Source: Croceivirga sp. | GTDB lineage: Bacteria > Bacteroidota > Bacteroidia > Flavobacteriales > Flavobacteriaceae | Reading direction: 5' to 3' | Assembly: GCA_028281025.1 (NCBI GenBank) | Contig: JANQKR010000013.1 | Span: 620,001 to 684,000, forward strand | Length of the DNA: 64,000 nucleotides | Shown: one piece after another, positions 6,117-43,863 of the stretch | How positions within the stretch are numbered: position 1 is the first letter of the stretch | Layout: every line of letters begins with the position of its first letter | Made by a program: the position numbers and the translations under genes | Notes under the pieces: model-generated | What the model was told of the DNA's origin: nothing | The model's database searches: none | What the model saw: only the letters and a program-made list of their open reading frames with translations

Positions 6117-7313
6117 ATGAAGATTTTGATCATCAACTCTGGGAGTTCTTCCATTAAGTTTCAAGTGATAGTAATGCCCCAGGGCCGTAGCTTGTGCAAA
6201 GGTATCGTTGAGCGATTGGGTCAGGAAAACGGGCATGTGCGCTATGAAAAGGGTACGGTATCCTTAAAACGTACCATGCACATCAAAGACCATAAATCCG
6301 GTCTTGGCCAAATTATGGAATTGTTAAAGGATCCTTCGCACGGTGTATTGGAAGGTGATGGGGAAATTGATTGTGTTGGGCATAGGGTCGTCCATGGCGG
6401 CGATGCCTTTGGCGGTGCTACGGAAATAAGTGATGGAGTGCTGGAAAAAATCAAAGCGCTTTCTTTTCTGGCGCCATTGCACAATCCCGCCAATGCCATC
6501 GGTATTGAAGTGTCCCAGGCCCTTTTTCCCAAAGCCAAACAAGTTGCGGTATTTGATACCGCATTTCATCAAAGCATTCCCCCGAAGGCCCATGTCTATG
6601 CCATTCCCAAAAAATTGACCCAGGACCATGGGATCCGGGTGTATGGATTTCATGGTACCAGCCATAAATATGTTTCGGAAAAAGCAATCGCGTATTTGGG
6701 AAAGCCCAAATCAAAAATCATCACTGTACACTTGGGCAATGGTTCCAGCATTACTGCCGTGAAAGATGGGAAAAGTATAGAACATTCCCTTGGATTTGGA
6801 CCTTCAAACGGTTTAATTATGGGAACGCGGAGTGGCGATATTGATCAGTCCGTTGTGTTTTTCCTAATGGATTCCTGTGGGATGGATTCCCAGGAAGTGA
6901 ATACGGTGCTCCAGAAGGAAAGTGGATTGTTGGGATTGACAGGACACTCCGATCTTAGGGAAATCCAACGGTTGGCGGAAGAAGGGGACAAAGACTGCCT
7001 GTTGGCCTTGGAGATGATCTCACATCGCATAAAAAAGTATATTGGTGCCTATATCGCCATTCTCAATGGGGTGGACGCCATTGTATTCACGGCAGGAATT
7101 GGGGAAAATTCTGCATTGGTCCGTCAAATGTCCTGTTCCGGAATGGAAGCCATGGGCATTGTTATGGAAGGTGAAAGAAATGCATCGATCAATAGCAAAA
7201 ACGAAGTTTCCGAATTTCAGGACAAGGACAGCCGGGTTCGCCTTTTGGTAATCCCTACCAATGAAGAGCTGGAAATTGCCCGACAATGTCACCAGCTGTT
7301 GGGAAAGGGATAG
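6117..7313 (+). CDS. ackA: Acetate kinase
   Basis: Transfers phosphate between acetyl phosphate and ADP, yielding acetate and ATP, or the reverse when growing on acetate. It has the normal length (398 residues) and all family motifs: NSGSSSIK with Asn7, GHRVVHGG with Arg90, the catalytic Asp147 in VFDTAFH, GFHGTSHKYV (177-186), the phosphate-binding HLGNGSSI, GTRSGDID, and GIGENS near the C-terminus. It lies 9 bp downstream of pta and is co-transcribed. Nothing unusual is seen. Confidence 0.97.
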   Translation: MKILIINSGSSSIKFQVIVMPQGRSLCKGIVERLGQENGHVRYEKGTVSLKRTMHIKDHKSGLGQIMELLKDPSHGVLEGDGEIDCVGHRVVHGGDAFGGATEISDGVLEKIKALSFLAPLHNPANAIGIEVSQALFPKAKQVAVFDTAFHQSIPPKAHVYAIPKKLTQDHGIRVYGFHGTSHKYVSEKAIAYLGKPKSKIITVHLGNGSSITAVKDGKSIEHSLGFGPSNGLIMGTRSGDIDQSVVFFLMDSCGMDSQEVNTVLQKESGLLGLTGHSDLREIQRLAEEGDKDCLLALEMISHRIKKYIGAYIAILNGVDAIVFTAGIGENSALVRQMSCSGMEAMGIVMEGERNASINSKNEVSEFQDKDSRVRLLVIPTNEELEIARQCHQLLGKG

Positions 7314-32810: not shown

Positions 32811-33006
32811 ATTTCCCAATCGGGTTGGACCCTCTGTCGCAATGACTGTTGCTGTTCCTTTGTCATTTCGAACGCATGTGAGAAATCTTATCATTGAGGG
32901 TAACAGGTATTGATATTTGTGATTGGATTTCTCAATCGTCGCTCTGCTCCTCATGTCGCAATGACTGTTGCTGTTCCTTTGTCATTTCGAACGCATGTGA
33001 GAAATC
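32811..33006. repeat. Tandem palindromic repeat pair, left of GIY-YIG gene
   Basis: Two copies of a roughly 80-bp imperfect palindrome, 119 bp apart. The better copy spans 32926-33006: GATTTCTCAATCG at one end and TGAGAAATC at the other, with inner arms GTCGCAATGAC / GTCATTTCGA. The left copy (32811-32879) is more degenerate at its outer end. Both share the identical run TGTTGCTGTTCC. The pair ends exactly where the GIY-YIG stop codon begins (33007). Confidence 0.85.
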
Positions 33007-33306
33007 TCAAACCACCTCATGATTCAAAAACTCCCAATTCGAATTGAATGCTGAAATGAGTTTGTCTTTCTTTTCCCTACGCCATTTTTTTAATTCTTTT
33101 TCCCTCAAAATCGCAGATTCAATAGCATCAAAACCTTCATAATACACCAAATAGAAGCAGTTGTATTTTCCTGCAAATGATTTCTTCGCATTTTGGCTGT
33201 CAAAGTAATGTTGGGAAAGTCTTTTTTGAATATCGTTGGTAACACCAATGTAAAGTGTGGTTTTGTTTTCGTTGGTGACGATATAGACAAAGTAGGAATG
33301 GAGCAT
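33007..33306 (-). CDS. GIY-YIG nuclease domain protein (UvrC-like, 99 aa)
   Basis: This minimal GIY-YIG protein shows VYIV (7-10), LYIGVTN with Tyr19/Gly21, R29, and a downstream Glu in REKELKKWRREKK, matching the single-domain GIY-YIG family seen as many paralogues in flavobacterial genomes. It is probably an endonuclease. It lies between mfd and the serine hydrolase, directly bounded by palindromic repeats: its TGA stop abuts one repeat (ends 33006) and the next repeat starts 21 bp before its ATG. A second, related gene is at 40733-41041. Confidence 0.85.
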   Translation of the reverse strand: MLHSYFVYIVTNENKTTLYIGVTNDIQKRLSQHYFDSQNAKKSFAGKYNCFYLVYYEGFDAIESAILREKELKKWRREKKDKLISAFNSNWEFLNHEVV

Positions 33307-33327
33307 TTTTAAAGATAGTTTTTTTGA

Positions 33328-33541
33328 GATTTCTCAATCGTCGCTTCGCTCCTCATGTCGAAATGACTCCCTGGTTCCAGTTGTCATTTCGAACCGAACG
33401 AAGAGAGCGTGAGAAATCTTATGATTGAGGGTGATAGGCATTGATATTAGTAATTGGATTTCTCAATCGTCGCTTCGCTCCTCATTTCGAAATGACTGTT
33501 GCTGTTCTTTTATCATTTCGACCCTGGGACCATGGGAAATC
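33328..33541. repeat. Tandem palindromic repeat pair, right of GIY-YIG gene
   Basis: Two more copies of the repeat family found at 32811-33006, in the same order: 33328-33418 and 33457-33541, 129 bp apart. Arms are GATTTCTCAATCGTCGCTTC and TGAGAAATC, with inner arms GTCGAAATGAC / GTCATTTCGA. Even the linker between the copies is similar on both sides (ATTGAGGGT...ATTGATATT). The GIY-YIG gene is therefore framed by two homologous direct repeats of about 200 bp. Confidence 0.85.
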
Positions 33542-33580
33542 TAGATTCCATGGGAACACTTTCCAAAGAAGACGAATCCA

Positions 33581-36500
33581 TTACGGGAGTACTTCACTCC
33601 GTTCTTGGAGCGGCCGCAGAACTTGCATCGCCTTTTCAATGGAGGTAATCCCCTCAAAGACCAACAACAACCGCAATCCATTTCGTGTCTGTTTTTCCTT
33701 GAGTTGACATGCCCTTGGGTTGGCTTGAACGTATTGCAATATGCTGGTAAAAGCCTCAGTTTGGTAAAATGGGGATTGTTGGTCGGCGATAAAATAACCC
33801 AAAAATTTCCCTTTTTTCAGAATCACTTTTTCAAGTCCAATTGAGGTGGCTATCCATTTCACACGAACAGAGTTGAGCAAGTCCACCGCCTGTTCCGGAA
33901 GTTCCCCAAAGCGGTCCACCAACTCGGTTTCAAATTTCTGGAGTGATTCTTCATCCCCCACTTCGTTAAGCTGCGTGTACAGGTTTAAGCGCTCTGTAAT
34001 ATTGTTCACATAATCATCGGGGAAGAGCAGCTCAAAATCGGTATCCAATTGGGTATCCTTTACAAATACCTTTTCCTTTTCGCCCTCTACTTCATCATAC
34101 AACTCCTTAAATTCATTTTCCTTGAGCTCTTCTATGGCTTCGGTCAATATTTTTTGATAGGTCTCAAATCCAATCTCATTGATAAATCCACTTTGTTCAC
34201 CCCCCAGAAGATCACCAGCTCCACGGATTTCCAAATCTTTCATGGCAATATTGAAACCACTGCCCAATTCGGTAAATTGTTCCAAGGCCTGAATCCGTTT
34301 TCGCGCATCGGGTGTCATCACTTCATAAGGTGGGGTAATGAAAAAGCAAAATGCCTTTTTGTTGCTTCGACCAACACGTCCGCGCATTTGGTGCAGATCA
34401 CTCAACCCAAAATTATTGGCATTATGGATAAAAATGGTATTGGCATTGGTTACGTCCAGGCCACTTTCCACAATGGTCGTGGAAACCAGGACATCAAATT
34501 CCCCATTCATAAAGGCGAGCATCAGTTGTTCCAATTTCTTGCCTTCCATCTGCCCATGGCCAATACCAATTTTGGCATCGGGCACCAGACGTTGGAGCAT
34601 CCCCGCCATTTCTTTTATATTTTCAATACGGTTATGGATAAAGAATACCTGTCCTCCCCTTTGGATTTCATAGGAAATGGCATCCCTTATGATTTCCTCG
34701 TTAAACCGAATGACCCTGCTCTCAATAGGATAGCGATTGGGAGGTGCCGTATTGATGACCGAAAGGTCCCGTGCCGCCATTAAGCTGAACTGTAGTGTTC
34801 TGGGGATGGGTGTTGCGGTCAATGTAAGCACATCCACATTTTCCTTAATGGACTTGAGCTTGTCCTTAACGGCCACCCCAAATTTTTGTTCTTCATCCAC
34901 AATAAGGAGTCCCAAGTCCTTAAATTGCACACTTTTGTTCACCAATTGATGTGTACCGATAATAATATCGATTTTGCCCTGTGCCAGTTGTTCCAGTATT
35001 TCACGTTTCTCTTTGGCCGTTCGGAACCGGTTAAGGTAGTCCACGGTAACCGGCAGTTCCCCCAACCGCTTTTTAAAGGTATTGTTGTGTTGAAAGGCCA
35101 GAATGGTGGTAGGGACCAAAATGGCCACTTGCTTGCCATTGTCCACGGCCTTAAAAGCTGCCCTAATGGCCACTTCGGTCTTACCGAAACCAACATCCCC
35201 ACAGATAAGGCGGTCCATAGGCCGCTCGCTCTCCATATCCTTTTTGACATCGGCAGTGGATTTGGCCTGATCGGGGGTATCCTCATAAATGAAGGAGGCC
35301 TCCAGTTCATGTTGTAAATAGGAGTCTGGGCCGTACTGAAATCCTTTTTCGAGCCTGCGTTTGGCATATACCTTAATAAGGTCAAAGGCAATTTTTTTGA
35401 CCCGACTTTTTGTTTTCTGTTTTAGTTTTTTCCAAGCTGCGGAGCCCAGTTTGTAAATCTTGGGAGCTGCACCGTCCTTACCGTTGTATTTGGAGATTTT
35501 ATGCAGGGAATGGATACTGACATATAAGATATCCCGGTCCCCATATACCAATTTAATGGCCTCCTGTTTTTTGCCCTCAACATCAATTTTTTGCAATCCT
35601 CCAAACTTGCCAATGCCGTGGTCAATATGGGTCACGTAATCCCCAAGTTCCAATTTGTTCAGTTCCTTGAGCGTAATGGCCTGTTTTTTGGCATAACCAT
35701 TTTTTAAATGGAACTTATGATAACGTTCAAAGATTTGATGGTCCGTATAACAGGCCAATTGCAAATCATGGTCAATAAAACCTTGGTATAGTGGAAAAAC
35801 AAGGGTGTGGTAACCAATGTCATCATTGGTTTCGTCATCATCACCCAAAATTACAGTTTTGATGATGTCTTTTAGTCGCTTGGCCTGTTGTTCCGTAGAG
35901 CAGCAAATTACATTTTCAAAACCTTTGTCATGATTTTCCTGAAGGTCTTGAACCAACAATTCAAATTTTTTATTGAAAGCGGGTTGGGGTTTGGCTCGGA
36001 AGGAAAAGGCATTTTCACTGCGGTCGGTTCTTGAAGAAATGGATTGGTTTTGGTGACCGAACGAGGCCGAAGCCCCAATTTCCACTACGGTAAAATCACT
36101 TAGTTGACTTTTTAGCAGAGCGGAGCTCACAAAAAGTTCCTCCGGTTGGGCGTGCTTTATTTCCTTGCTCAGTTTTTCAAAGCTTTCTTTGGCCTTTTCA
36201 AAATTTGAGTCAATTCTATGAAAAACAAGGCTCAGGTTTTTGGAGTAGATGACCGTTTTTGGGGAAATATATTTTAGGAAACTTTCCCGGGTCTCTTGCA
36301 GGAATTTGTTCTCCACATTGGGGATAATGGTTATTTTTTTCACTTTTTCCGTGGAAAGCTGTGTTTCGACGTCAAAAGTGCGAATACTGTCCACTTCGTC
36401 CCCAAAAAACTCAATACGATAGGGTTCATCATGTGAAAAGGAAAATACATCCACTATACCCCCCCGAACTGAAAACTCTCCGGGTTCGGTTACAAAATCC

Positions 36501-37003
36501 ACCCTTTTGAACTCGTATTCAAACAAGACTTCGTTGAGAAAATCCAAGGAAAGGGTATCCTCCAGCCTTATTTTTAGGGTGTTCTTTTCCAACTCTTTAC
36601 GGGTGACCACTTTTTCAAAAAGTGCATCGGGATACGTAACGATGACCGCTGGCTTCCTTCTGGAATTGATCCGATTCAGAACTTCGGCCCGCAAAAGCAC
36701 ATTGGCATTGTCCGTTTCCTCTATTTGATAGGGCCTTCGATAGCTTCCCGGGTAGAAGAGCACATCTTTTTCCCCAACCAATTGTTCCAGATCATTTAAA
36801 ATGTACGCGGCCTCTTCCTTATCGTTCAAAAGGACAAGGAATGGATTTTCGGACAATTTAAAGAGACTGGAAATTGTAAATGAAAAAGAGGATCCCACAA
36901 GACCTTGGACATGGGTACCTTTTTGGGACTGGGCAATGGTTTCCCACAGTTCCCGAAGTTTTGGGGACTGTTCAAAACGTGCTAAAATGGACGATTTGGT
37001 CAA
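33581..37003 (-). CDS. mfd: Transcription-repair coupling factor Mfd
   Basis: 1140 residues. Removes RNA polymerase stalled at DNA damage and recruits UvrA. Architecture: UvrB-like N-terminal module (QGLVGSSFSFTISSLFKLSENPFLVL, and YPGSYRRPYQ), CarD-like RNAP-interaction domain (LELGDYVTHIDHGIGKFGG), RecG-like helicase motor with Walker A GDVGFGKTEVA, DEEQ box (VDEEQKFGV), TATPIPRTL and QMRGRVGRS, and the C-terminal TRCF domain. Length and motifs are complete. It is the last repair gene of the minus-strand island and follows pdeM after a palindromic repeat. Confidence 0.97.
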   Translation of the reverse strand: MTKSSILARFEQSPKLRELWETIAQSQKGTHVQGLVGSSFSFTISSLFKLSENPFLVLLNDKEEAAYILNDLEQLVGEKDVLFYPGSYRRPYQIEETDNANVLLRAEVLNRINSRRKPAVIVTYPDALFEKVVTRKELEKNTLKIRLEDTLSLDFLNEVLFEYEFKRVDFVTEPGEFSVRGGIVDVFSFSHDEPYRIEFFGDEVDSIRTFDVETQLSTEKVKKITIIPNVENKFLQETRESFLKYISPKTVIYSKNLSLVFHRIDSNFEKAKESFEKLSKEIKHAQPEELFVSSALLKSQLSDFTVVEIGASASFGHQNQSISSRTDRSENAFSFRAKPQPAFNKKFELLVQDLQENHDKGFENVICCSTEQQAKRLKDIIKTVILGDDDETNDDIGYHTLVFPLYQGFIDHDLQLACYTDHQIFERYHKFHLKNGYAKKQAITLKELNKLELGDYVTHIDHGIGKFGGLQKIDVEGKKQEAIKLVYGDRDILYVSIHSLHKISKYNGKDGAAPKIYKLGSAAWKKLKQKTKSRVKKIAFDLIKVYAKRRLEKGFQYGPDSYLQHELEASFIYEDTPDQAKSTADVKKDMESERPMDRLICGDVGFGKTEVAIRAAFKAVDNGKQVAILVPTTILAFQHNNTFKKRLGELPVTVDYLNRFRTAKEKREILEQLAQGKIDIIIGTHQLVNKSVQFKDLGLLIVDEEQKFGVAVKDKLKSIKENVDVLTLTATPIPRTLQFSLMAARDLSVINTAPPNRYPIESRVIRFNEEIIRDAISYEIQRGGQVFFIHNRIENIKEMAGMLQRLVPDAKIGIGHGQMEGKKLEQLMLAFMNGEFDVLVSTTIVESGLDVTNANTIFIHNANNFGLSDLHQMRGRVGRSNKKAFCFFITPPYEVMTPDARKRIQALEQFTELGSGFNIAMKDLEIRGAGDLLGGEQSGFINEIGFETYQKILTEAIEELKENEFKELYDEVEGEKEKVFVKDTQLDTDFELLFPDDYVNNITERLNLYTQLNEVGDEESLQKFETELVDRFGELPEQAVDLLNSVRVKWIATSIGLEKVILKKGKFLGYFIADQQSPFYQTEAFTSILQYVQANPRACQLKEKQTRNGLRLLLVFEGITSIEKAMQVLRPLQERSEVLP

Positions 37004-37020
37004 TCCATACGATTTGGGGG

Positions 37021-37028
37021 CAAAAATA
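37021..37028 (-). promoter_or_regulatory. -7 element upstream of mfd
   Basis: Minus-strand TATTTTTG (plus-strand 37021-37028) is an exact TAnnTTTG match, 17 bp before the mfd ATG. The matching -33 box would lie inside the palindromic repeat at 37037-37110 and is not recognisable. Confidence 0.4.
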
Positions 37029-37036
37029 AATTAATT

Positions 37037-37110
37037 TGTCATTCCTGCGGAAGCGGGAATCTGATTAATTCTAGTTAATGGTATGGATTCCTGCCTACGC
37101 AGGAATGACA
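37037..37110. repeat. Inverted repeat between pdeM and mfd
   Basis: The outer arms TGTCATTCCTGCG (37037-37049) and CGCAGGAATGACA (37098-37110) are perfectly complementary over 13 bp. The inside holds GAAGCGGGAATC, GATTAATT and AGTTAATG, further imperfect symmetry. It ends 3 bp before the pdeM stop codon. This is the familiar REP-like type of Flavobacteriaceae. Confidence 0.8.
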
Positions 37111-37113
37111 GCA

Positions 37114-37746
37114 TCAAATTCTCACCACTTCCCCCTCAACGATTACAAAGACCTCATCGGTTTTTTTGGGTTTCAGGGCATGGTTGCCCGTAAACTCGCC
37201 AAAAGCGGGAAGGATAAGCTGATTTTTTGTTTTAAAAAAACACGGTAGCTTTAAGCGTTGGCGCCCAAAACCTTGCAAACGGACGGCAGGGTGTATATGT
37301 CCACAAAAATTGAAAAATCCGTCCCGTTCTTCAGGAAGGTGGGTGAAAAGAAAATCGTCCCATTGCAATTCCTTAAAAACCGTTATCCCCAGGGCTTCGA
37401 ATTTTTCGGGAGCGATAATATCATGGTTTCCCACCACCAAACTGATCTTGGAAGGGGTCTTCGCCACCCAATTCTCAAAAAAGTCCCACTCCCTATTGAA
37501 GGAAGAATGGAATAAATCGCCAAGAAAACACAAATGAAAAGGTTGAAAATGGCCTACAATTTTATCCAGTAAGAGAAAGTTTTTGTGAATGGCCTTTCGT
37601 GGTACCGCGGCTCCAAACTTTCTGAAATGGGCGACCTTGCCCAGATGTACATCTCCAATGAGCAACAGGGATTTTTCTTCCCAGAACATACCGCCCAGGG
37701 GGTGCAGGATAAAGGATTGGTTTTTTATTAGTACGGTATGGGTCAT
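37114..37746 (-). CDS. pdeM: Ligase-associated DNA damage response endonuclease PdeM (metallophosphoesterase)
   Basis: 210-residue calcineurin-type phosphoesterase with the full metal set: GD32VH34, GD77LFHS, GN107H108D and CGHIHPA near 147. It belongs to the PdeM group that sits in operons with an ATP-dependent ligase, an Lhr-like helicase and an MBL exonuclease; all four are present on this strand here. The helicase gene ends 494 bp upstream, separated only by the DUF559 cassette. The terminal repeat of that cassette lies immediately before the ATG and supplies an AGAGGTGG stretch at ribosome-binding distance. Confidence 0.92.
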   Translation of the reverse strand: MTHTVLIKNQSFILHPLGGMFWEEKSLLLIGDVHLGKVAHFRKFGAAVPRKAIHKNFLLLDKIVGHFQPFHLCFLGDLFHSSFNREWDFFENWVAKTPSKISLVVGNHDIIAPEKFEALGITVFKELQWDDFLFTHLPEERDGFFNFCGHIHPAVRLQGFGRQRLKLPCFFKTKNQLILPAFGEFTGNHALKPKKTDEVFVIVEGEVVRI

Positions 37747-37747
37747 G

Positions 37748-38241
37748 AAACCACCTCTTTCTCCGCCGAAGGCGGATTCATTCTCCTCCTTAAGAAGGAG
37801 GAGCGCTTTTAGTTGTTTTAAAATTTTCAGAAATGGTTTTTAGGACGCCATCCAAATCATCGAAAACCAATTTGTTTTCAAATCTTAGAACGGTAAAACC
37901 CAACTTTTCAAGGCGTTTATCCCTTTTCAGGTCTTTTTCCATCGCCTCTGGACGGTTGTGATATTCACCGTTAAGTTTAATTATCAGTTTTTCGAAAGGG
38001 CAATAAAAGTCTACTACAAAGTTTTCTATGCTTTGTTGTCTTCTAAATTTTCTGCCTCGCAATTTACTCTTGGAAAGGTATTTCCAAAGAAATGCTTCTG
38101 CTGAAGTAGCATTATTTCTAAGTTCCTTCCGTGTTTCCTTTAGGTATTTATGATTATACATCAACCCAAAAATACAGACAAAATACTCCCCTCCTAATTT
38201 TAGGAGGGGTGATTCCAACTTCGCTGGAATCGGGGTGGTTT
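37748..38241. mobile_element. Putative repeat-bounded DUF559 nuclease cassette
   Basis: The 494-bp unit is delimited by AAACCACC (37748-37755) and its reverse complement GGTGGTTT (38234-38241). Inside each end are two hairpins in mirrored order: TCCGCC/GGCGGA (37762-37776) and CTCCTCCTT/AAGGAGGAG (37783-37803) on the left; CCCCTCCTA/TAGGAGGGG (38188-38209) and GATTCCA/TGGAATC (38211-38231) on the right. The only gene within is the DUF559 nuclease. The element fits exactly between the helicase stop codon (overlapped by 2 bp) and the pdeM ATG (1 bp away). I saw no transposase and no clear target duplication. Confidence 0.6.
37790..38161 (-). CDS. DUF559 (Vsr-like) endonuclease
   Basis: From the ATG at 38161 the protein has 123 residues and the DUF559 pattern: LRNNATSAEAFLWKYLSKSKLRGRKFRRQQSIENFVVDFYCPFEKLIIKLNGEYH, then KLGFTVLRFENKLVFDDLDGVLKTI. 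The core D-F-Y and I-x-L-N-G-E motif corresponds to the PD-(D/E)xK-type active site of the very-short-patch-repair-like family, although the usual E-x-D is I-K-L-N-G here. The C-terminus KSAPPS and the stop codon are encoded by the cassette's own palindrome. It lies inside the ligase-associated repair operon. Confidence 0.85.
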   Translation of the reverse strand: MYNHKYLKETRKELRNNATSAEAFLWKYLSKSKLRGRKFRRQQSIENFVVDFYCPFEKLIIKLNGEYHNRPEAMEKDLKRDKRLEKLGFTVLRFENKLVFDDLDGVLKTISENFKTTKSAPPS

Positions 38242-40669
38242 ACTTCATCAAAATCTTGGTCATTCGTTTAATGCGATCGGCCAATTTTTCATTGGAGAGT
38301 TTTTCCCTGAGCCTATCCGTGATCAACGGAAAGGAAAATGGAGTTGCCTTTTGACATTGCTTCCAAACGATTTCTTGAGTAGCGATACGTTCCAAGGCCA
38401 TTCGCAATCGGCCTTCTTCCAATTGATGCTCAAAGGTTTCCGTAAACGCTTGTTTAAAGAGGAGGTTTTCCGGTTCGTAATCCCGGAAGACATCAAACAA
38501 GAGTTGGGAACTACTTTGAAGGTGCTTCATTTTTATTCCTTTTTCGGGATAGCCGGTAAAGACCATACCACTGATAACGGCAATATCACGAAATTTTCTG
38601 CGGGCCATTTCATTGGAATTCAGACTTTTCTGTAAATCGGGGAGCATGTATTCGGAAGTAAACAGATTATTGTCGATTACCGCTTGAATGTCAATGGGTT
38701 TGTCCGATAACATCTCAAAGCCATAGTCGTTAAAAGCCAATGAGCAGGTGATAGGGGAGAGCAGGCCTATGCGGTACGATAGCAAACTGCTCATTGCTTC
38801 GTGTACGGCACGTCCTTCAAAAGGATAAAAAATATGGTGGTAGCCGTCCCTTGTCTTAAAGGTTTCAATCAAGAACTCACTGGGTTTGGGAACGCTACTT
38901 TCCTCCCTTTGTTTCTCAAAGATATGTTGGAGCGCTACCAGTTCCTTGCTAAGATTGGCTTCCGTAGCCGCCTTGTACAGCTCCAATCGCAGCAATTTGG
39001 ACATTTCGGAAGAAAAACTCAATCGACCACCGGCCCAAGCAGGGACCTTATTGGTGCGTTTTGTGGAATTGCGCACCTGCACCTTCATGCTACGAATACG
39101 GATAAATTCCAAATTCCGTCCGGCAAATACAAATACGTCCCCAGGATTGAGTTTTGAAACAAAATATTCTTCAATGGAACCGATATATCCCCCTTTTTGA
39201 TAATGTACGGAAAGGTTGGCATCGCCCACAATGGTCCCAATCTGAAAACGATGCCTCATGGCAATGCCTTTGTTGTTTACCTTAAACTTTCCATCCGCTT
39301 CCACTTCCACTTTTTTGTATTCGTCGTAGCTTTTAAGGCTTTGGCTTCCCATGACCAAAAAATTGAGCAACCATTGCCATTCCTCTTCCGTAAGGCCTTG
39401 GTAACAAAAGGTCTGTTTAATTTCAGGGAAGATTTCATTGGGATAAAAGCCATCGGAAACGGCCAGGGTGGTCAAATATTGGATGAGCACGTCATAACTG
39501 TTCAAAAAAGGTAAGCGGTCCTCAACGGCATTTTCCCTTACCGCAACTTGAAGTGCGGAAGCCTCGATCAGTTCAATGGCGTGGGTGGGTAAAAAATAGA
39601 TCACACTTGTTTCTCCAGGACGATGACCGCTACGCCCGGCGCGCTGTAAAAAACGGGCCACCCCTTTTGGCCCACCAATTTGGATGACGGTTTCCACCGG
39701 TGCAAAATCCACCCCCAAATCCAAACTGGAGGTGCAGACCACCGCTTTTAGGCTTTCGTTTCGTATGGCCTGTTCTACCCATATACGCGTTTCTTTGTTC
39801 ACACTACCATGGTGCATGGCCATTTCCCCGGCAAACTCCGGGTAACGTTCCAATATTTTCTGAAACCAAATCTCACATTGACTGCGCGTGTTGGTAAAAA
39901 GGAGTGTAGTTTTGCTCTTTTTTATGATGGGAATAACATCATCCAGTAGATGTAGTCCCAAGTGCCCACGCCATGGGAAGGTTTCCATCTGTTTTGGGAT
40001 GATACTGTTGACCTTGATCTTTTTTTTGAGATTGGCCCTTACCAAAACGGAATTCGCCATTTCGGGAGAAATAGGGCCTAGAAGTACTTGGCGGGCTTGG
40101 GGTAAATTGCCGATTGTGGCCGAAATGCCCCAAATACGAAGGTCTTTGCATACGGTCTTGAGCCGGGAAAGGGCCAACTCCATCTGGATTCCCCGCTTGG
40201 TCCCCAAAAGTTCATGCCACTCATCAACAACGATGGCCGAGCAGTCTTTAAATGTTCTGTCATAGGCTTTTGAAGCCAACAATAGCTGTAGGCTTTCTGG
40301 GGTAGTGATCAGTAAATCGGGCATGGTGGTCCGCTGTCGTGCCCGTTCTTTTGTGGAAGTGTCCCCTGTTCTGATCCCTACGGTCATTGGGAGCTCCAAA
40401 TCGGCCACTATACGTTCGGCAGATTGTTTTATTTCTTGGGAAAGGGCGCGCAGGGGGGTGATCCAAACTGCTTTCAATCCCTTTTTGTGTTTGGTTTTGT
40501 ATTCAGGATGGTTTTTAATGTAATTCAGGACAATGGGAAACCAAAGGGCATAGGTTTTTCCACTTCCAGTAGGGGCGTTCAATAATCCGTGTTTGCCCTG
40601 TAAAAAGGCCGTCCAGGTCTCTTTTTGGAATGCATGGGGTTTCCAACCTTGCTGTTGGAACCAGGTCAA
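38240..40669 (-). CDS. Ligase-associated DEXH-box helicase (Lhr-like)
   Basis: 809 residues counted from a TTG at 40669. Motifs: Q-motif FQKETW, Walker A APTGSGKT (32-39), VVDEWHE with D149-E150-W-H152, SATIGN, CTSSLDLGVDF, QRAGRSGHRPGE, and the long Lhr C-terminal domain. Lhr-type helicases unwind DNA 3' to 5' and this subgroup is linked to ligase-associated repair. The start is unclear: no ATG exists in frame before the upstream stop at 40729-40727, and homologues normally begin a few residues before the WF-x5-W segment, near an ATC at 40699-40697. The upstream codons overlap a repeat remnant. Confidence 0.9.
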   Translation of the reverse strand: MTWFQQQGWKPHAFQKETWTAFLQGKHGLLNAPTGSGKTYALWFPIVLNYIKNHPEYKTKHKKGLKAVWITPLRALSQEIKQSAERIVADLELPMTVGIRTGDTSTKERARQRTTMPDLLITTPESLQLLLASKAYDRTFKDCSAIVVDEWHELLGTKRGIQMELALSRLKTVCKDLRIWGISATIGNLPQARQVLLGPISPEMANSVLVRANLKKKIKVNSIIPKQMETFPWRGHLGLHLLDDVIPIIKKSKTTLLFTNTRSQCEIWFQKILERYPEFAGEMAMHHGSVNKETRIWVEQAIRNESLKAVVCTSSLDLGVDFAPVETVIQIGGPKGVARFLQRAGRSGHRPGETSVIYFLPTHAIELIEASALQVAVRENAVEDRLPFLNSYDVLIQYLTTLAVSDGFYPNEIFPEIKQTFCYQGLTEEEWQWLLNFLVMGSQSLKSYDEYKKVEVEADGKFKVNNKGIAMRHRFQIGTIVGDANLSVHYQKGGYIGSIEEYFVSKLNPGDVFVFAGRNLEFIRIRSMKVQVRNSTKRTNKVPAWAGGRLSFSSEMSKLLRLELYKAATEANLSKELVALQHIFEKQREESSVPKPSEFLIETFKTRDGYHHIFYPFEGRAVHEAMSSLLSYRIGLLSPITCSLAFNDYGFEMLSDKPIDIQAVIDNNLFTSEYMLPDLQKSLNSNEMARRKFRDIAVISGMVFTGYPEKGIKMKHLQSSSQLLFDVFRDYEPENLLFKQAFTETFEHQLEEGRLRMALERIATQEIVWKQCQKATPFSFPLITDRLREKLSNEKLADRIKRMTKILMK

Positions 40670-40687
40670 TGCAATTTCGAAGAGTTG

Positions 40688-40711
40688 ATTGCGAGTGATA
40701 GCGAAGTAATC
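40688..40711. repeat. Half palindromic repeat at the helicase 5' end
   Basis: ATTGCGAGTGATAGCGAAGT (from 40688), running on to GTAATC, closely resembles the frequent flavobacterial repeat ATTGCGAG-n-GAAGCAATCT. It lies between the GIY-YIG stop (40735-40733) and the helicase, overlapping the first sense codons upstream of the TTG start. Its partner half was not found. Confidence 0.5.
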
Positions 40712-40732
40712 TTTTGATATGTGTCTCTAAAA

Positions 40733-41041
40733 TTAAAAAGATTCTTTACTCCCATCAAACCAACTTTCTGACAAATCATTCCATTCCGGATTTATCGAGT
40801 TGATTAGTTTTTCCTTTCGTTTTCTGTTACCTGCTTTCAATTGCCGCTCTCTTTTAAAGGAATCCTTGATAGTATCAAATTCTTCAAAATAGACCAAAAG
40901 GGTACAATTGTATTTTTTGGTGAAAGCGTTTTTGTATTTACCATTCTTATGCTCGCTGACCCTTCTTCCCAAATTATTTGTAGCACCGACATACAGTACA
41001 GTTTTGTTTTTATTGGTAAGGATGTAGCAGTAGCCCTTCAT
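40733..41041 (-). CDS. GIY-YIG nuclease domain protein (102 aa)
   Basis: Related to the gene at 33007-33306: CYILTNKNKTVLYVGATNNL with the GIY-YIG tyrosines (Tyr6, Tyr17) and Gly19, Arg26, then the Glu-containing helix FKRERQLKAGNRKRKEKLI and the shared end NSINPEWNDLSE. It lies inside the ligase-associated repair operon, between the ligase (stop 97 bp upstream) and the helicase. Two paralogues within 8 kb, both at repair-gene junctions, suggest dispersal as mobile units. Confidence 0.87.
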   Translation of the reverse strand: MKGYCYILTNKNKTVLYVGATNNLGRRVSEHKNGKYKNAFTKKYNCTLLVYFEEFDTIKDSFKRERQLKAGNRKRKEKLINSINPEWNDLSESWFDGSKESF

Positions 41042-41137
41042 AGCGGATGGGGCGAAGTTAACGGTTTTATGGAGGTTCTTGTTTTATCTGATTTGGGTTC
41101 TTTTTTAGGTAATGGGTTTATTTGCCAAGAGATCCCT

Positions 41138-42817
41138 TCATTCCGCCTTAGCGGAATTCGGAATCAGTGCCTTTAAATCTTCCAACGAATTCGCTTCCTC
41201 AATTTTTTTGTCCTTACGCCATCTTAAGATCCTTGGGAACCGTGTGGCCACACCACTTTTATGTCTTTTGGAAAAGGCAATGCCCTCAAAGGCAATCTCA
41301 AACACATGATGTGGTGTTACGCTGCGCACAGGACCAAAGCGTTCCAGGGTATTCCTTTTTATCCAGGCATCAACTTCTTGAAATTCCTTATCGGTCAGAC
41401 CGGAATAGGCCTTTGCAAAGGTGACGAGTTCCCGTTCCCCTTTTTCATTTGTCTTCCAAAGGGCAAAGGTGTAGTCGGTAAACAAATTACTTCTTCGACC
41501 ATGCCCGCGCATGGCATACGTTAACACGGCGTCAATGGTCAATGGGTCCACCTTCCATTTCCACCAGTCCCCTTTTTTACGCCCTACTTGATACGATGAA
41601 TCCATGCGTTTTACCATTAAACCTTCACTGTGTTTGGCTCGGGACATCTCCCGTTCTTGGGCCACCTGGTCCCAGGAGTTGAACTGCATCCGTTCGGAGA
41701 GGAGTAACGGTAAGTCACTTCCGCTGCCCTCAACCACGGACGAACAAAGATTTTCCAAAAGTCGCCTCCGTTCCATAAATGGTTTATCCCGAATGTCCGT
41801 TCCATTCCATTCCAACAGATCATAGGCTTTTATGATTACCGGGGTTTTCTGTAAAAGCGATTTTGAGACCGTTTTCCGGCCGATCCGGGTCTGGAGGTCA
41901 TTAAAGGTGCCAATAGTCCCATTGGGATAGGGAAGTAATTCGCCATCGAGTACTGTTCCGTTGGGGAGTATGCCAATAAATTTTTGAAACTCTGGGTATT
42001 TATCCGTTACCAATTCCTCCCCTCGGCTCCAAACAAACAATTGATCGTTCCTAATAATGAGTTGTGCGCGAATACCGTCCCATTTATGTTCTACGGACCA
42101 TTGGGTCACATCCCCCAACTCCCGGGGAAGGTCCTCCAGGGCATAGGCCAAATAAAAGGGATAGGGTTTTGAGAGAAAATCACCTTCGTTTTCTTCCAAT
42201 ACCAGATTTTGGAATGAGATGGTGCTGGGATCCCAATTGCCCATGAGTTTATAGGCCAAAATGTCTTCATCCACATCAGTGGCTTTGGAAAGGGCCTTGG
42301 TCATTAATTTTTGGCTTACCCCAATTCGAAAACCGCCTGTAATCAATTTTGTAAATACGAAACGGCCATAGTAATCCAGTTGCTGCCAATTTTCAAAAAG
42401 ATATGCCTTTTTATCCTCCTCCGATTGTTTTTTCAACCATATCATTTCTTCCAGAAAATGGGTCAAATCCTTATCCGTGGAATGTTCGTCCGATGGGACG
42501 ACGAGGGCAATTGTTTCGGCCAGATCACCTACAATATGATAACTTTCCTCAAACAGCCACAATGGAATTTTTGCGAGTTCGGAGGCCCATTCCCGTAATA
42601 AGGTGGTATTGACCGGTCTGGGCGGACGCCGATGGGAAAGGATGGCAATGGTCCAGACTTTATCGGTATCTGGGGCCATCAAAAAATAATTGGCCAATGC
42701 CTGTACCTTGACATTGGTCTTGTTGGTGCTATCCAAAGTCTTGATGAGCTGCGAAAAGCCCCCCATCCCCCGAAGGGGAGGTATCGGTTCCTTTTTATTT
42801 TTATTGGGGTTTTTCAT
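41138..42817 (-). CDS. ATP-dependent DNA ligase (ligase-associated repair operon)
   Basis: 559 residues: DNA_ligase_A_N (about 20-190), adenylation domain with the AMP-lysine K245 in EHKWDGIR, ELLPYPNGTIG, and a C-terminal OB-fold (RRSNLFTDYTFALW). It seals nicks with ATP; NAD-dependent LigA would be encoded elsewhere. Residues 1-20 are unusual: they contain EPIPPLRGMGG, which is translated from a repeat element at 42755-42876. A start at Met18 (42766) would give the more usual N-terminus. The C-terminal IPNSAKAE and the stop are inside another palindrome (41140-41157). Confidence 0.94.
   Translation of the reverse strand: MKNPNKNKKEPIPPLRGMGGFSQLIKTLDSTNKTNVKVQALANYFLMAPDTDKVWTIAILSHRRPPRPVNTTLLREWASELAKIPLWLFEESYHIVGDLAETIALVVPSDEHSTDKDLTHFLEEMIWLKKQSEEDKKAYLFENWQQLDYYGRFVFTKLITGGFRIGVSQKLMTKALSKATDVDEDILAYKLMGNWDPSTISFQNLVLEENEGDFLSKPYPFYLAYALEDLPRELGDVTQWSVEHKWDGIRAQLIIRNDQLFVWSRGEELVTDKYPEFQKFIGILPNGTVLDGELLPYPNGTIGTFNDLQTRIGRKTVSKSLLQKTPVIIKAYDLLEWNGTDIRDKPFMERRRLLENLCSSVVEGSGSDLPLLLSERMQFNSWDQVAQEREMSRAKHSEGLMVKRMDSSYQVGRKKGDWWKWKVDPLTIDAVLTYAMRGHGRRSNLFTDYTFALWKTNEKGERELVTFAKAYSGLTDKEFQEVDAWIKRNTLERFGPVRSVTPHHVFEIAFEGIAFSKRHKSGVATRFPRILRWRKDKKIEEANSLEDLKALIPNSAKAE
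41140..41157. repeat. Palindrome overlapping the ligase stop
   Basis: ATTCCGC (41140-41146) and GCGGAAT (41151-41157) are perfect arms around CTTA. The ligase stop codon (TGA, plus-strand 41138-41140) overlaps the first base of the palindrome, and the last ligase codons (NSAKAE) are palindrome-derived. Confidence 0.6.
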
Positions 42818-42876
42818 AATGATACCTCATCATTTTTAACTCCCTCTCCTTTGGGGAGGGCTGGGGAGGGGCTTTT
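42755..42876. mobile_element. MITE-like palindromic element spanning the exonuclease-ligase junction
   Basis: A 122-bp unit begins AAAAGCCCC (42755-42763) and ends GGGGCTTTT (42868-42876). Inside, G/C tracts mirror each other: CCCCCCATCCCCCGAAGGGG on the left and CTCCTTTGGGGAGGGCTGGG on the right. The centre holds the exonuclease stop and the ligase start in an ATGA overlap. The element thus codes for the last 19 or so residues of the exonuclease and the first 20 of the ligase. Confidence 0.6.
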
Positions 42877-43863
42877 ATCTTCTTCCTCGCCATATTGCGT
42901 ATGCTCGGTTCTTGCATCGTAACCCAGTTCGCGCAAATACCTGGAAAAGATTTCCGTATAACCATGGGTGCAGATTACTTTTTCTGCCGTGGTGTCCTTT
43001 ATGGCCTTCAAAAGCCCCGGCCAATCACAATGGTCGCTCAGTACAAAGCCTTTATCCACGGCACGTCTTCGTCTGGCGCCTCTAAAGGCCATCCATCCGC
43101 TGGCGGTCCCGGTCACAAATGGTGTCATTTTTCGAATCCAGGTACTGCCGTGTGCCGATGGCGGCGCCAGTACAAGGCTCCCCTTTAGGTCTTCCTTTTT
43201 AGTGTCCTTGGTCACCAATTCCGTTTGATGAAAATCCGTGAACTGCCGGAGGACCTGGGTCATATTTTCAACCGCCCCATGGGTGTAAATTTTACCGATG
43301 GAAGGGTCCAATAGTTTTAAAAGGCGCTGTGCCTTTCCCAATGTATACCCAAAAAGTACGGAGGTTTGCCCATTGGCACGATTGGTGGCCCACCACTCAT
43401 TGATGTCTTTTTTGACCTCTTCCTGCGGTCTCCAGAGAAATGCGGGCAATCCAAAGGTGCATTCCGTGATAAACGTGTGGCACGTAACGGATTCGTAGGG
43501 TGTGGCCAAGCCATCGTCCTCAATCTTATAATCCCCCGTAAAGACCCATACCTCACCTTTATGTTCCACGCGGATCTGTGAAGACCCCAAAATGTGCCCT
43601 GCGGGGTGGAGACTGAATTTTACACCTTTGACACTAAAGGTTTCCCCCCATTCTTTTCCTGAAATGGCAATGTTTCCCAAACGATGTTTCACGATAGGTA
43701 CGTTTTGATGGTGGGTAATGTAGTTTTTATGCCCCCAACGACTGTGATCGGCATGGCCGTGGGAAATTATGGCCTTGGACACGGGCCGCCAGGGATCCAA
43801 GTACACATCTGCGGCTTCGCAATAAATGCCCTTGTCCGTAAAACGTAGAAGAGGAGGGTTCAT
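42814..43863 (-). CDS. Ligase-associated DNA damage response exonuclease (MBL fold)
   Basis: 349 residues from the ATG at 43863 (MNPPLLRFTDKGIYCEAADVYLDPW); the frame also has a TTG six codons upstream. Metallo-beta-lactamase/beta-CASP nuclease related to SNM1/Artemis: H35-G-H37-A-D39-H40, then HPAGHILGSSQI, FTGDYK and a late HCDWPGL. Normally such proteins end soon after the HTQYGEEE segment; here a tail SPSPALPKGEGVKNDEVSL follows, encoded by the 122-bp palindromic element. It overlaps the ligase start by 4 bp (ATGA), so translation is coupled. First gene of the repair operon. Confidence 0.92.
   Translation of the reverse strand: MNPPLLRFTDKGIYCEAADVYLDPWRPVSKAIISHGHADHSRWGHKNYITHHQNVPIVKHRLGNIAISGKEWGETFSVKGVKFSLHPAGHILGSSQIRVEHKGEVWVFTGDYKIEDDGLATPYESVTCHTFITECTFGLPAFLWRPQEEVKKDINEWWATNRANGQTSVLFGYTLGKAQRLLKLLDPSIGKIYTHGAVENMTQVLRQFTDFHQTELVTKDTKKEDLKGSLVLAPPSAHGSTWIRKMTPFVTGTASGWMAFRGARRRRAVDKGFVLSDHCDWPGLLKAIKDTTAEKVICTHGYTEIFSRYLRELGYDARTEHTQYGEEEDKSPSPALPKGEGVKNDEVSL

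Follow-up and report, generated by a model that had tools for sequence, protein, structure and literature searches.

Small one-domain nuclease genes of the GIY-YIG and DUF559 families were found paired with specific families of palindromic repeats, and the two probably form nuclease-REP (repetitive extragenic palindrome) couples, in which a nuclease gene lies between two copies of its cognate palindrome and is accompanied by many gene-less doublets. The units were recognised in a 64,000-nucleotide stretch (the window) of contig JANQKR010000013.1 of Croceivirga sp. (Flavobacteriaceae), whose repair island reads, on the minus strand, exonuclease, ligase, GIY-YIG, Lhr, DUF559, PdeM, Mfd and GIY-YIG, as assigned from open reading frames (ORFs) and Pfam. 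The island contains three small nuclease genes (two GIY-YIG and one DUF559), and palindromic DNA is present at every one of its junctions. The case for couples is made by the anatomy of these units, by empty, gene-less and swapped junctions in relatives, by the pairing of nuclease with palindrome, by arm letters that follow the nuclease tree and by cognate arms elsewhere in the genome. An earlier note on this DNA had proposed precise, possibly homing-like cassettes at gene junctions. Its gene order and coordinates agreed with the ORFs and Pfam matches, the nuclease genes at ligase-Lhr and Lhr-PdeM and the palindromes between exonuclease and ligase were located where it had placed them, the PdeM-Mfd repeat and the third nuclease gene with flanking repeats after mfd were both present, and four was a fair count of the repeat families. 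More telling than its interpretation are the family-to-family pairing of nuclease and palindrome and the match with CGTC-tagged REPs, described below.

The nuclease genes and palindromic repeats of the window, the latter given without strand, are as follows.

33007–33306, minus strand: GIY-1, small GIY-YIG nuclease of 99 aa, after Mfd (PF01541, E = 1.3e-17)
37790–38173, minus strand: DUF559 nuclease of 127 aa, Lhr-PdeM junction (PF04480, E = 8.3e-32)
40733–41041, minus strand: GIY-2, small GIY-YIG nuclease of 102 aa, ligase-Lhr junction (PF01541, E = 5.9e-16)
32862–32965: gene-less TC-class doublet, first array unit (arm 32863–32887 located; the second arm, with slight changes, identified by eye)
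32981–33006: TC-class arm beside the GIY-1 end (arm search)
33327–33367: TC-class arm beside the GIY-1 start (arm search)
33383–33496: gene-less TC-class doublet in the array after mfd (arm search)
33513–33541: single TC-class arm on the 3' side of mfd (arm search)
37037–37110: gene-less CC-class doublet between PdeM and Mfd, 74 bp (25-nt arms 88% complementary)
37747–37803: one arm of the DUF559 element, CTCCTCCTTAAGAAGGAGGAG plus hairpin plus GGTGG (hairpin arm 37783–37803)
38188–38239: other arm of the DUF559 element, made up of a pyrimidine hairpin, a second hairpin and GGTGGT (hairpin arm 38188–38209)
40687–40711: one arm of the GIY-2 element, GATTGCGAGTGATAGCGAAGTAATC, eroded (arm search)
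41138–41165: other arm of the GIY-2 element, eroded, forming the ligase 3' end (arm search)
42760–42871: pyrimidine/purine palindromes of the exonuclease-ligase junction, in the ligase start and exonuclease end (42760–42781 and 42843–42860 located; outer limits 42840–42871 by eye)

Strict GIY-type arms number 13 in the whole window, and 9/13 lie between 32863 and 41165. Behind mfd they form a tandem array of three units repeating about every 119 bp, in each of which an arm (GTCATTTCGA..GAGAAATC) is paired with its inverted mirror image, and the middle unit carries GIY-1 instead of the short spacer; this is the clearest case of a nuclease gene occupying a doublet spacer. The sister genome GF1 (Lhr 99% identical) has more units in this array. 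The PdeM-Mfd doublet (GTCATTCCTGC..GCAGGAATC) belongs to another class than the GIY-1 array and is collapsed in GF1 into one hybrid palindrome, 46 bp shorter, with the join between the two palindrome centres, a change that slippage between short direct repeats within both arms would also explain. The weakest point of the window anatomy is GIY-2, whose arms are eroded here and clearer in relatives, in several of which the ligase likewise ends in ..GAAGGAATC, inside the repeat arm. The last exonuclease codons run into a palindromic repeat and, because the ligase N-terminus and the exonuclease C-terminus read through the palindromes at 42760–42871, both host proteins seem to be extended by repeat-derived residues. 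By eye, the loop of the second hairpin of the DUF559 arm (window 38211–38231 against locus L015) appears almost inverted when the window and GF1 are compared, the outcome expected from template switching or hairpin processing.

Two arm grammars had been recognised by eye, TCATT-NN-loop-N'N'-AATC at GIY-YIG genes and a pyrimidine-rich hairpin at DUF559 genes. Both patterns were fixed, after which held-out loci and 20 control regions of 20 kb were fetched and scored within 300 bp. Held-out loci were the next rows in list order without a training locus, excluding rows from the window's own genome, a row at a contig end, a near-duplicate and DUF559 frames longer than 220 aa; proteins identical over the first 80 residues (6/150 loci) were removed before counting. 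The GIY motif was drawn by eye from training loci that include the window genes, and the fair test is that of the 40 + 20 held-out loci only. The GIY-YIG arm (GTCATTNN..N'N'AATC) was found near 41/54 training and 21/40 held-out GIY-YIG genes (on both sides of 28/54 and 10/40, respectively), near 2/22 training and 0/20 held-out small DUF559 genes, and near 20/304 control ORFs (both sides, 1/304), the held-out genes differing from the controls with Fisher p = 6e-12. The pyrimidine hairpin accompanied 22/22 training and 13/20 held-out small DUF559 genes (both sides, 15/22 and 7/20), 3/54 training and 2/40 held-out GIY-YIG genes, and 9/304 controls (both sides, 0/304), with p = 6e-13 for held-out genes versus controls. 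Among control genes with wide intergenic gaps, the GIY arm was present at 3/64 and the hairpin at 4/64. The link between nuclease family and palindrome family is specific, GIY-YIG genes going with GTC-tagged palindromes and DUF559 genes with pyrimidine hairpins. DUF559 is also a domain of large proteins (open frames of about 850–1170 aa), eight of which had the hairpin on one side in 6/8 cases and on both in 0/8. Neither motif was found at presumed RAYT (REP-associated tyrosine transposase) loci of the window's family (0/20; Y1 transposases of about 160–210 aa, a label based only on length and a weak match to PF01797), and RAYTs are unsupported as drivers of these palindromes. An inverted-repeat score between the two flanks of a locus was set aside as a weak test, since flanks swapped in from other loci carry the same arms and the null is inflated.

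Within the GIY-YIG family, arm and protein vary together. A strict arm of one of the four main classes (TC, CC, GC, CT) lay at 68/125 unique small GIY-YIG genes, and the letter pairs adjoining close TCATT/AATC were complementary in 206/278 cases near GIY-YIG genes versus 33/256 in control DNA. On a tree of the 125 unique proteins (68 labelled) the arm classes changed 13 times, compared with a shuffled mean of 35.7 and 0/200 shuffles as low; this tree has few columns, and near copies aid clustering and can beat label shuffles. Cognate arms were counted in 149 genomes as whole-genome exact patterns with a reversed control and with local arms removed, a genome being scored as holding a clade only when one of its loci had been fetched. 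Median counts in genomes with versus without the cognate clade were 12 vs 2 for TC (p = 4.5e-4), 16 vs 2 for CC (p = 2.5e-4), 3 vs 1 for GC (p = 3.8e-3) and 10 vs 1 for CT (p = 3.5e-4), off-diagonal values being smaller as a rule. Sampled sequence of 2.29 Mb, island loci included, held 273 strict arms versus 120 after shuffling, of which 100 were TC (shuffled 7) and 26 CC; same-class inverted pairs within 150 bp numbered 21 in one order and 25 in the other, with none in shuffled sequence. Spacers of gene-less doublets cluster by lineage (e.g. 38, 8–12, 52–54). The earlier note had held that repeats equally common at gene ends without nuclease genes would speak against its cassettes; half of this condition applies, the repeats being common at such gene ends, but those found there are shorter gene-less versions of the same arms. 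Several nuclease sites occur per genome, decayed copies with stops are also present, and the GIY-YIG gene lies on the same strand as the gene before it in 96/113 loci with both neighbours, consistent with read-through expression.

The search for empty junctions in related Flavobacteriaceae that the earlier note had suggested was made in 80 relatives fetched around Lhr, in 52 of which both ligase and Lhr were found. The ligase-Lhr gap was empty (35–54 bp) in 17/52, contained GIY-2 in 7/52 (L015, L018, L022, L023, L026, L036, L056) and DUF559 in 5/52 (L020, L071, L073, L081, L087), both recognised with the window proteins, and in the remainder held other sequence, for example a GIY-2 unit in decay in L024 and repeats alone in L017 and L025. 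The Lhr-PdeM gap measured -1 to 31 bp in 39/80 relatives, and DUF559 was found at this junction in the window, GF1 and L064. In L064 (about 6126–6491) the gene lies between pyrimidine-hairpin arms in opposite orientation, and because of that orientation it is probably an independent insertion at the junction used in the window. At the same junction L026 has a 165-bp element with DUF559-type arms and without a gene, and ten Allomuricauda/Flagellimonas relatives have gene-less doublets of the GIY-1 arm class, as judged by eye. In a Leeuwenhoekiella pair with 91–93% identity, L073 carries a 611-bp DUF559 unit vs an empty site in L074. The nuclease type is swapped at ligase-Lhr between L018 and L023 (GIY-2) and the equally close L020 (DUF559), at a host silent-site divergence (dS) of about 0.16. 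Insertion at homologous sites with empty alleles, a mark of homing endonuclease genes, was observed; the junction cassettes of the earlier note are borne out by these empty sites and nuclease-plus-repeat units, and their 'homing-like' nature was not shown. Two GF1 copies were not used as clean empty-site tests, L300 being cut by a contig end and L296 lying in an apparent split tRNA gene. By eye, the L296 GIY-YIG gene sits beside an apparent tRNA 3' part, with the tRNA end partly duplicated, and it has no counterpart among the fetched loci of the window genome; that of L300 adjoins a different tandem repeat (GGTCACTTCGAGGCATTTCGAGTGCC..), possibly another couple. The Lhr-PdeM junctions of L025 and L071 hold two small genes that by eye resemble a ParE/RelE-type toxin-antitoxin pair, without evident arms.

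Silent-site divergence was compared in three close pairs having the same nuclease at the same junction (window-GF1, L018-L023 and L081-L087; five comparisons in all), leaving out PdeM and Mfd of the latter two pairs, which were saturated or far apart; more distant pairs were saturated. Between the window and GF1 it was 0.013 for DUF559, 0.054 for GIY-2 and 0.096 for GIY-1 vs 0.15–0.21 for host neighbours, between L018 and L023 it was 0.095 for GIY-2 vs 0.16–0.18, and between L081 and L087 0.24 for DUF559 vs 0.40–0.56. The nuclease was below its neighbours in 5/5 comparisons, two of them clear (DUF559, 1/78 vs 119/663, p = 8e-6; 14/71 vs 318/879, p = 0.003), one weak (p = 0.013) and two not significant (0.057 and 0.15). 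The lower divergence fits homing or gene conversion, and constraint could also cause it.

Among up to 125 GIY-YIG copies, Y8, Y19, G21, R29, H33 and E69 were conserved in at least 99% and N88 in 90%; we take Y8, Y19, R29, H33, E69 and N88 to be the catalytic pattern of GIY-YIG nucleases. The structure model of GIY-1 matched UPF0213 (E 3e-4) and, weakly, UvrC and Slx1 (E 0.07 and above), the latter a branched-DNA nuclease, and a group I intron endonuclease was a weak family match for GIY-YIG, far below the cut-off. Foldseek matched the GF1 DUF559 model to 3hrl (E 2e-7), the homing endonuclease I-Bth0305I (3r3p, E 1e-4) and Vsr (E 0.03), placing it near NGO0050 and I-Bth0305I, and together with the alignment of an ELDG motif indicated a DUF559/Vsr-like nuclease fold with an acidic active site. 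Because the two models resemble UPF0213, Slx1, UvrC, NGO0050 and I-Bth0305I, branched or palindromic DNA is a plausible predicted substrate of these nucleases. A phage origin and a defence-system reading were both dropped, the CC-clade protein having no match in 50,697 phage records at E 1e-6 and PADLOC giving weak hits only.

GIY-2 had a match in 180/296 genomes sampled across the phylum, and the phylum-wide loci that were read had a strict arm on a side in 17/28 and on both in 10/28 (7/28 from the window's family). In a plasmid and megaplasmid collection, the CC-clade protein matched 33 records, among them Rhizobium, Sinorhizobium, Shinella, Neorhizobium, Sphingobium, Novosphingobium, Azospirillum, Neisseria, Aeromonas, Photobacterium, Planktothrix and Spirosoma. 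For the cross-phylum sets, 15/33 GIY-YIG and 12/33 DUF559 records, chosen for different organisms, were fetched. A strict arm lay near 7/15 of the plasmid GIY-YIG loci (both sides, 2/15). GTC was the commonest trinucleotide before their stem-7 palindromes (24/97), the second tag, TGG (20/97), being what a CCA tail on the opposite strand would give, and a GTC-tagged stem-7 palindrome was present at 11/15 loci, on both sides at 8/15. In the family set GTC preceded 96/697 such palindromes, at 44/125 loci (24 on both sides), and in the controls the tagged palindrome was found at 8/304 control ORF loci and 3/42 DUF559 loci. DUF559 relatives from Cyanobacteria, Proteobacteria and Deinococcus had the pyrimidine hairpin at 12/12 loci, on both sides at 5/12 (shuffled, 14% either side). 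In the crossed comparison the hairpin occurred at 0/15 plasmid GIY-YIG loci and the GIY-YIG arm near 0/12 DUF559 loci. On the strength of few loci, the pairing is seen again in Alphaproteobacteria, Neisseria and Cyanobacteria. A YqeY-type gene and dnaG flank one of the DUF559 genes, and in Azospirillum lipoferum a GIY-YIG gene is annotated between sufB and sufC.

CGTC-tagged REPs, as described by Di Nocera et al. 2013 (PMC3733652), have a CGTC tag (often TGTC), an 8–9 bp stem starting A, T, a 4–5 base loop and a CCA tail; head-to-head dimers predominate, carriers include Bacteroidetes, Neisseria, Azospirillum lipoferum and S. meliloti, and the repeats "apparently lack a dedicated transposase". 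The CC arm at the own-genome locus L004, TGTC-ATTCCTGC-GTAG-GCAGGAAT-CCA, has the tag, an 8-bp AT-starting stem, a 4-base loop and the CCA tail, and on reading this one class appears to fit the published repeats; TC, GC and CT arms deviate in their shorter stems or longer loops and would be relatives at most. Neisseria, A. lipoferum and S. meliloti are where relatives turned up here, and inverted pairs are common in both cases, here in both orders. Whereas no transposase gene is reported with them in that paper, a nuclease gene is associated here. The tag was a feature of the family and plasmid sets, while at stem 7 only 3/28 loci of the phylum-wide sample had it. Among the 5 to 20 best-ranked papers of each literature search, which covered no preprints and few subscription papers, none was seen to join GIY-YIG or DUF559 nucleases with REPs.

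Among known systems, the units are comparable to REPIN-RAYT or REPtron (TnpA-REP) in their REP-flanked enzyme gene, repeat-specific enzyme, gene-less doublets between genes and flanking repeats in inverted pairs, the gene-less arms relating to nuclease units as REPINs to RAYTs. They differ in that the enzyme is GIY-YIG or DUF559 (PF01541/PF04480) and not an HUH tyrosine transposase, and in that these arms are missing from presumed RAYT genes in the window's bacterial family. Insertion sequences and miniature inverted-repeat transposable elements likewise have terminal inverted arms and internally shortened copies, whereas here there is no known transposase and no evident target-site duplication, and the CC-clade unit measures about 370 bp. 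Free-standing homing endonuclease genes, of the phage T4 seg/mob type, share the GIY-YIG fold, the intergenic placement and the empty junctions in relatives, but the units described here are bounded by inverted palindromic arms, occupy several unrelated sites in one genome and also occur as gene-less copies, and their CC-clade protein had no match in the phage records.

Nothing supports the link to DNA repair implied by the earlier note: the same nuclease clades occupy other operon junctions, and the reading as a repair-specific island was rejected. One GIY-YIG clade was seen across genera at a junction named by eye as dUTPase-nucleotidyltransferase type (L172, L173, L147, L207, L303, L002), and one at a bioD-bioA type, also named by eye (L197, L201, L203, L215, L220). 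The host genes of the island are the following.

42814–43860, minus strand: exonuclease of the ligase-associated module (ORF; no match in a Pfam search, named from context)
41138–42817, minus strand: ATP-dependent DNA ligase (ORF and Pfam)
38240–40669, minus strand: Lhr-type helicase (ORF and Pfam)
37114–37746, minus strand: PdeM-like metallophosphoesterase (ORF and PF00149, a general metallophosphatase match only; PdeM name from context)
33581–37003, minus strand: Mfd (ORF; named by sequence, not family-searched)

The likeliest course, as inferred from these observations, is cutting of the palindrome by its nuclease and spread of the unit through repair, whether by transposition, by gene conversion among existing repeats, or by both. 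The nuclease would recognise its own palindrome, as duplex or as extruded hairpin or cruciform, and would cut there, and repair or strand transfer would copy the nuclease unit or the gene-less unit into other intergenic sites and into equivalent junctions of other strains. The intergenic placement would arise from the targeting of repeats already between genes together with selection against insertions in genes, and the cycle would work like REPIN-RAYT with an unrelated enzyme. The many sites per genome and the gene-less doublets fit transposition. Chances are about even that single-domain GIY-YIG proteins are the dedicated spreading enzymes of CGTC-tagged REPs, and that DUF559 proteins play this part for a second superfamily with pyrimidine hairpins, in Bacteroidota, Proteobacteria and Cyanobacteria at least.

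Several results weigh against nuclease-REP couples. Neither movement nor cutting was observed in this sequence analysis, and no target-site duplication was evident in presence/absence pairs including L073/L074, boundaries being imprecise at 80–93% identity. In the window the ELDG motif, present in five other aligned DUF559 proteins including GF1, reads KLNG (E63->K and D65->N, GF1 numbering), and since K and N replace conserved acidic residues this copy has probably lost its activity. Of the GIY-YIG genes, 57/125 had no strict arm in any of the four main classes, and some clades have other palindromes, or none seen (L296). The cognate-arm counts are not fully class-specific, with CC arms raised also in CT-clade genomes (11 vs 2, p = 4.9e-4) and with the GC clade (p = 8.8e-3), and CT arms with the CC clade (p = 1.7e-3). 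Copies in the window's own genome are modest (TC 32, CC 14), and in sampled own DNA the loose motif (0.71 per 10 kb) was not above shuffled DNA of other genomes (0.73), for which reason exact whole-genome patterns with a reversed control were used. Generic hairpins gave only a modest test (both sides, 45/125 vs 22/96 intergenic controls), and in the phylum-wide set GTC preceded 6/122 stem-7 palindromes, at only 3/28 loci, stems being shorter there.

On a distinctly less probable account, free-standing homing endonuclease genes dock on dispersed REPs spread earlier by something else, and empty REP-bearing junctions are cut and filled by gene conversion. The same junction being filled in several genera (lig-lhr and, by eye, the dut and bioD-bioA types), the lowered silent divergence of the nucleases, the match of the DUF559 model to I-Bth0305I and the sub-threshold intron endonuclease match would all suit this account, but arm letters that track the nuclease tree across many sites and the higher numbers of the cognate arm elsewhere in clade-bearing genomes are unexplained by it, unless the nuclease also drives the repeat. 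It is unlikely that these are host or domesticated proteins whose action on REP structures, be it cruciform trimming, repeat stability or RNA processing, leaves the repeats in place, and whose genes drift in passively; the UPF0213 match of GIY-1, its weak Slx1 and UvrC matches and the persistence of some insertions at one junction across genera are compatible with such a role, but patchy presence, the swap of nuclease type between L018/L023 and L020, several sites per genome and decayed copies argue against it. Chance or annotation bias, whereby small genes with long intergenic flanks often lie near hairpins, could account for the modest enrichment of generic hairpins, but is very improbable given the crossed controls that share no motif, the presumed RAYT and wide-gap control genes, and the held-out and cross-phylum tests, barring a bias not seen.

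The nuclease-REP couples suggest small nucleases as the long-missing enzymes behind the spread of such repeats in bacterial genomes. If so, each unit, with its arms and a gene of about 100 codons measuring some 370 bp in all, would rank with the smallest DNA units known to spread themselves, and would do so without a transposase, recombinase or reverse transcriptase. Many small genes annotated merely as GIY-YIG or DUF559 nucleases would thereby gain a function, hairpin repeats between operon genes in several phyla would be explained, and REPs would be shown to be spread by enzymes unrelated to RAYTs. With a concrete enzyme family named and matched enzyme-repeat pairs of predicted specificity at hand, the question becomes one for binding and cleavage experiments.

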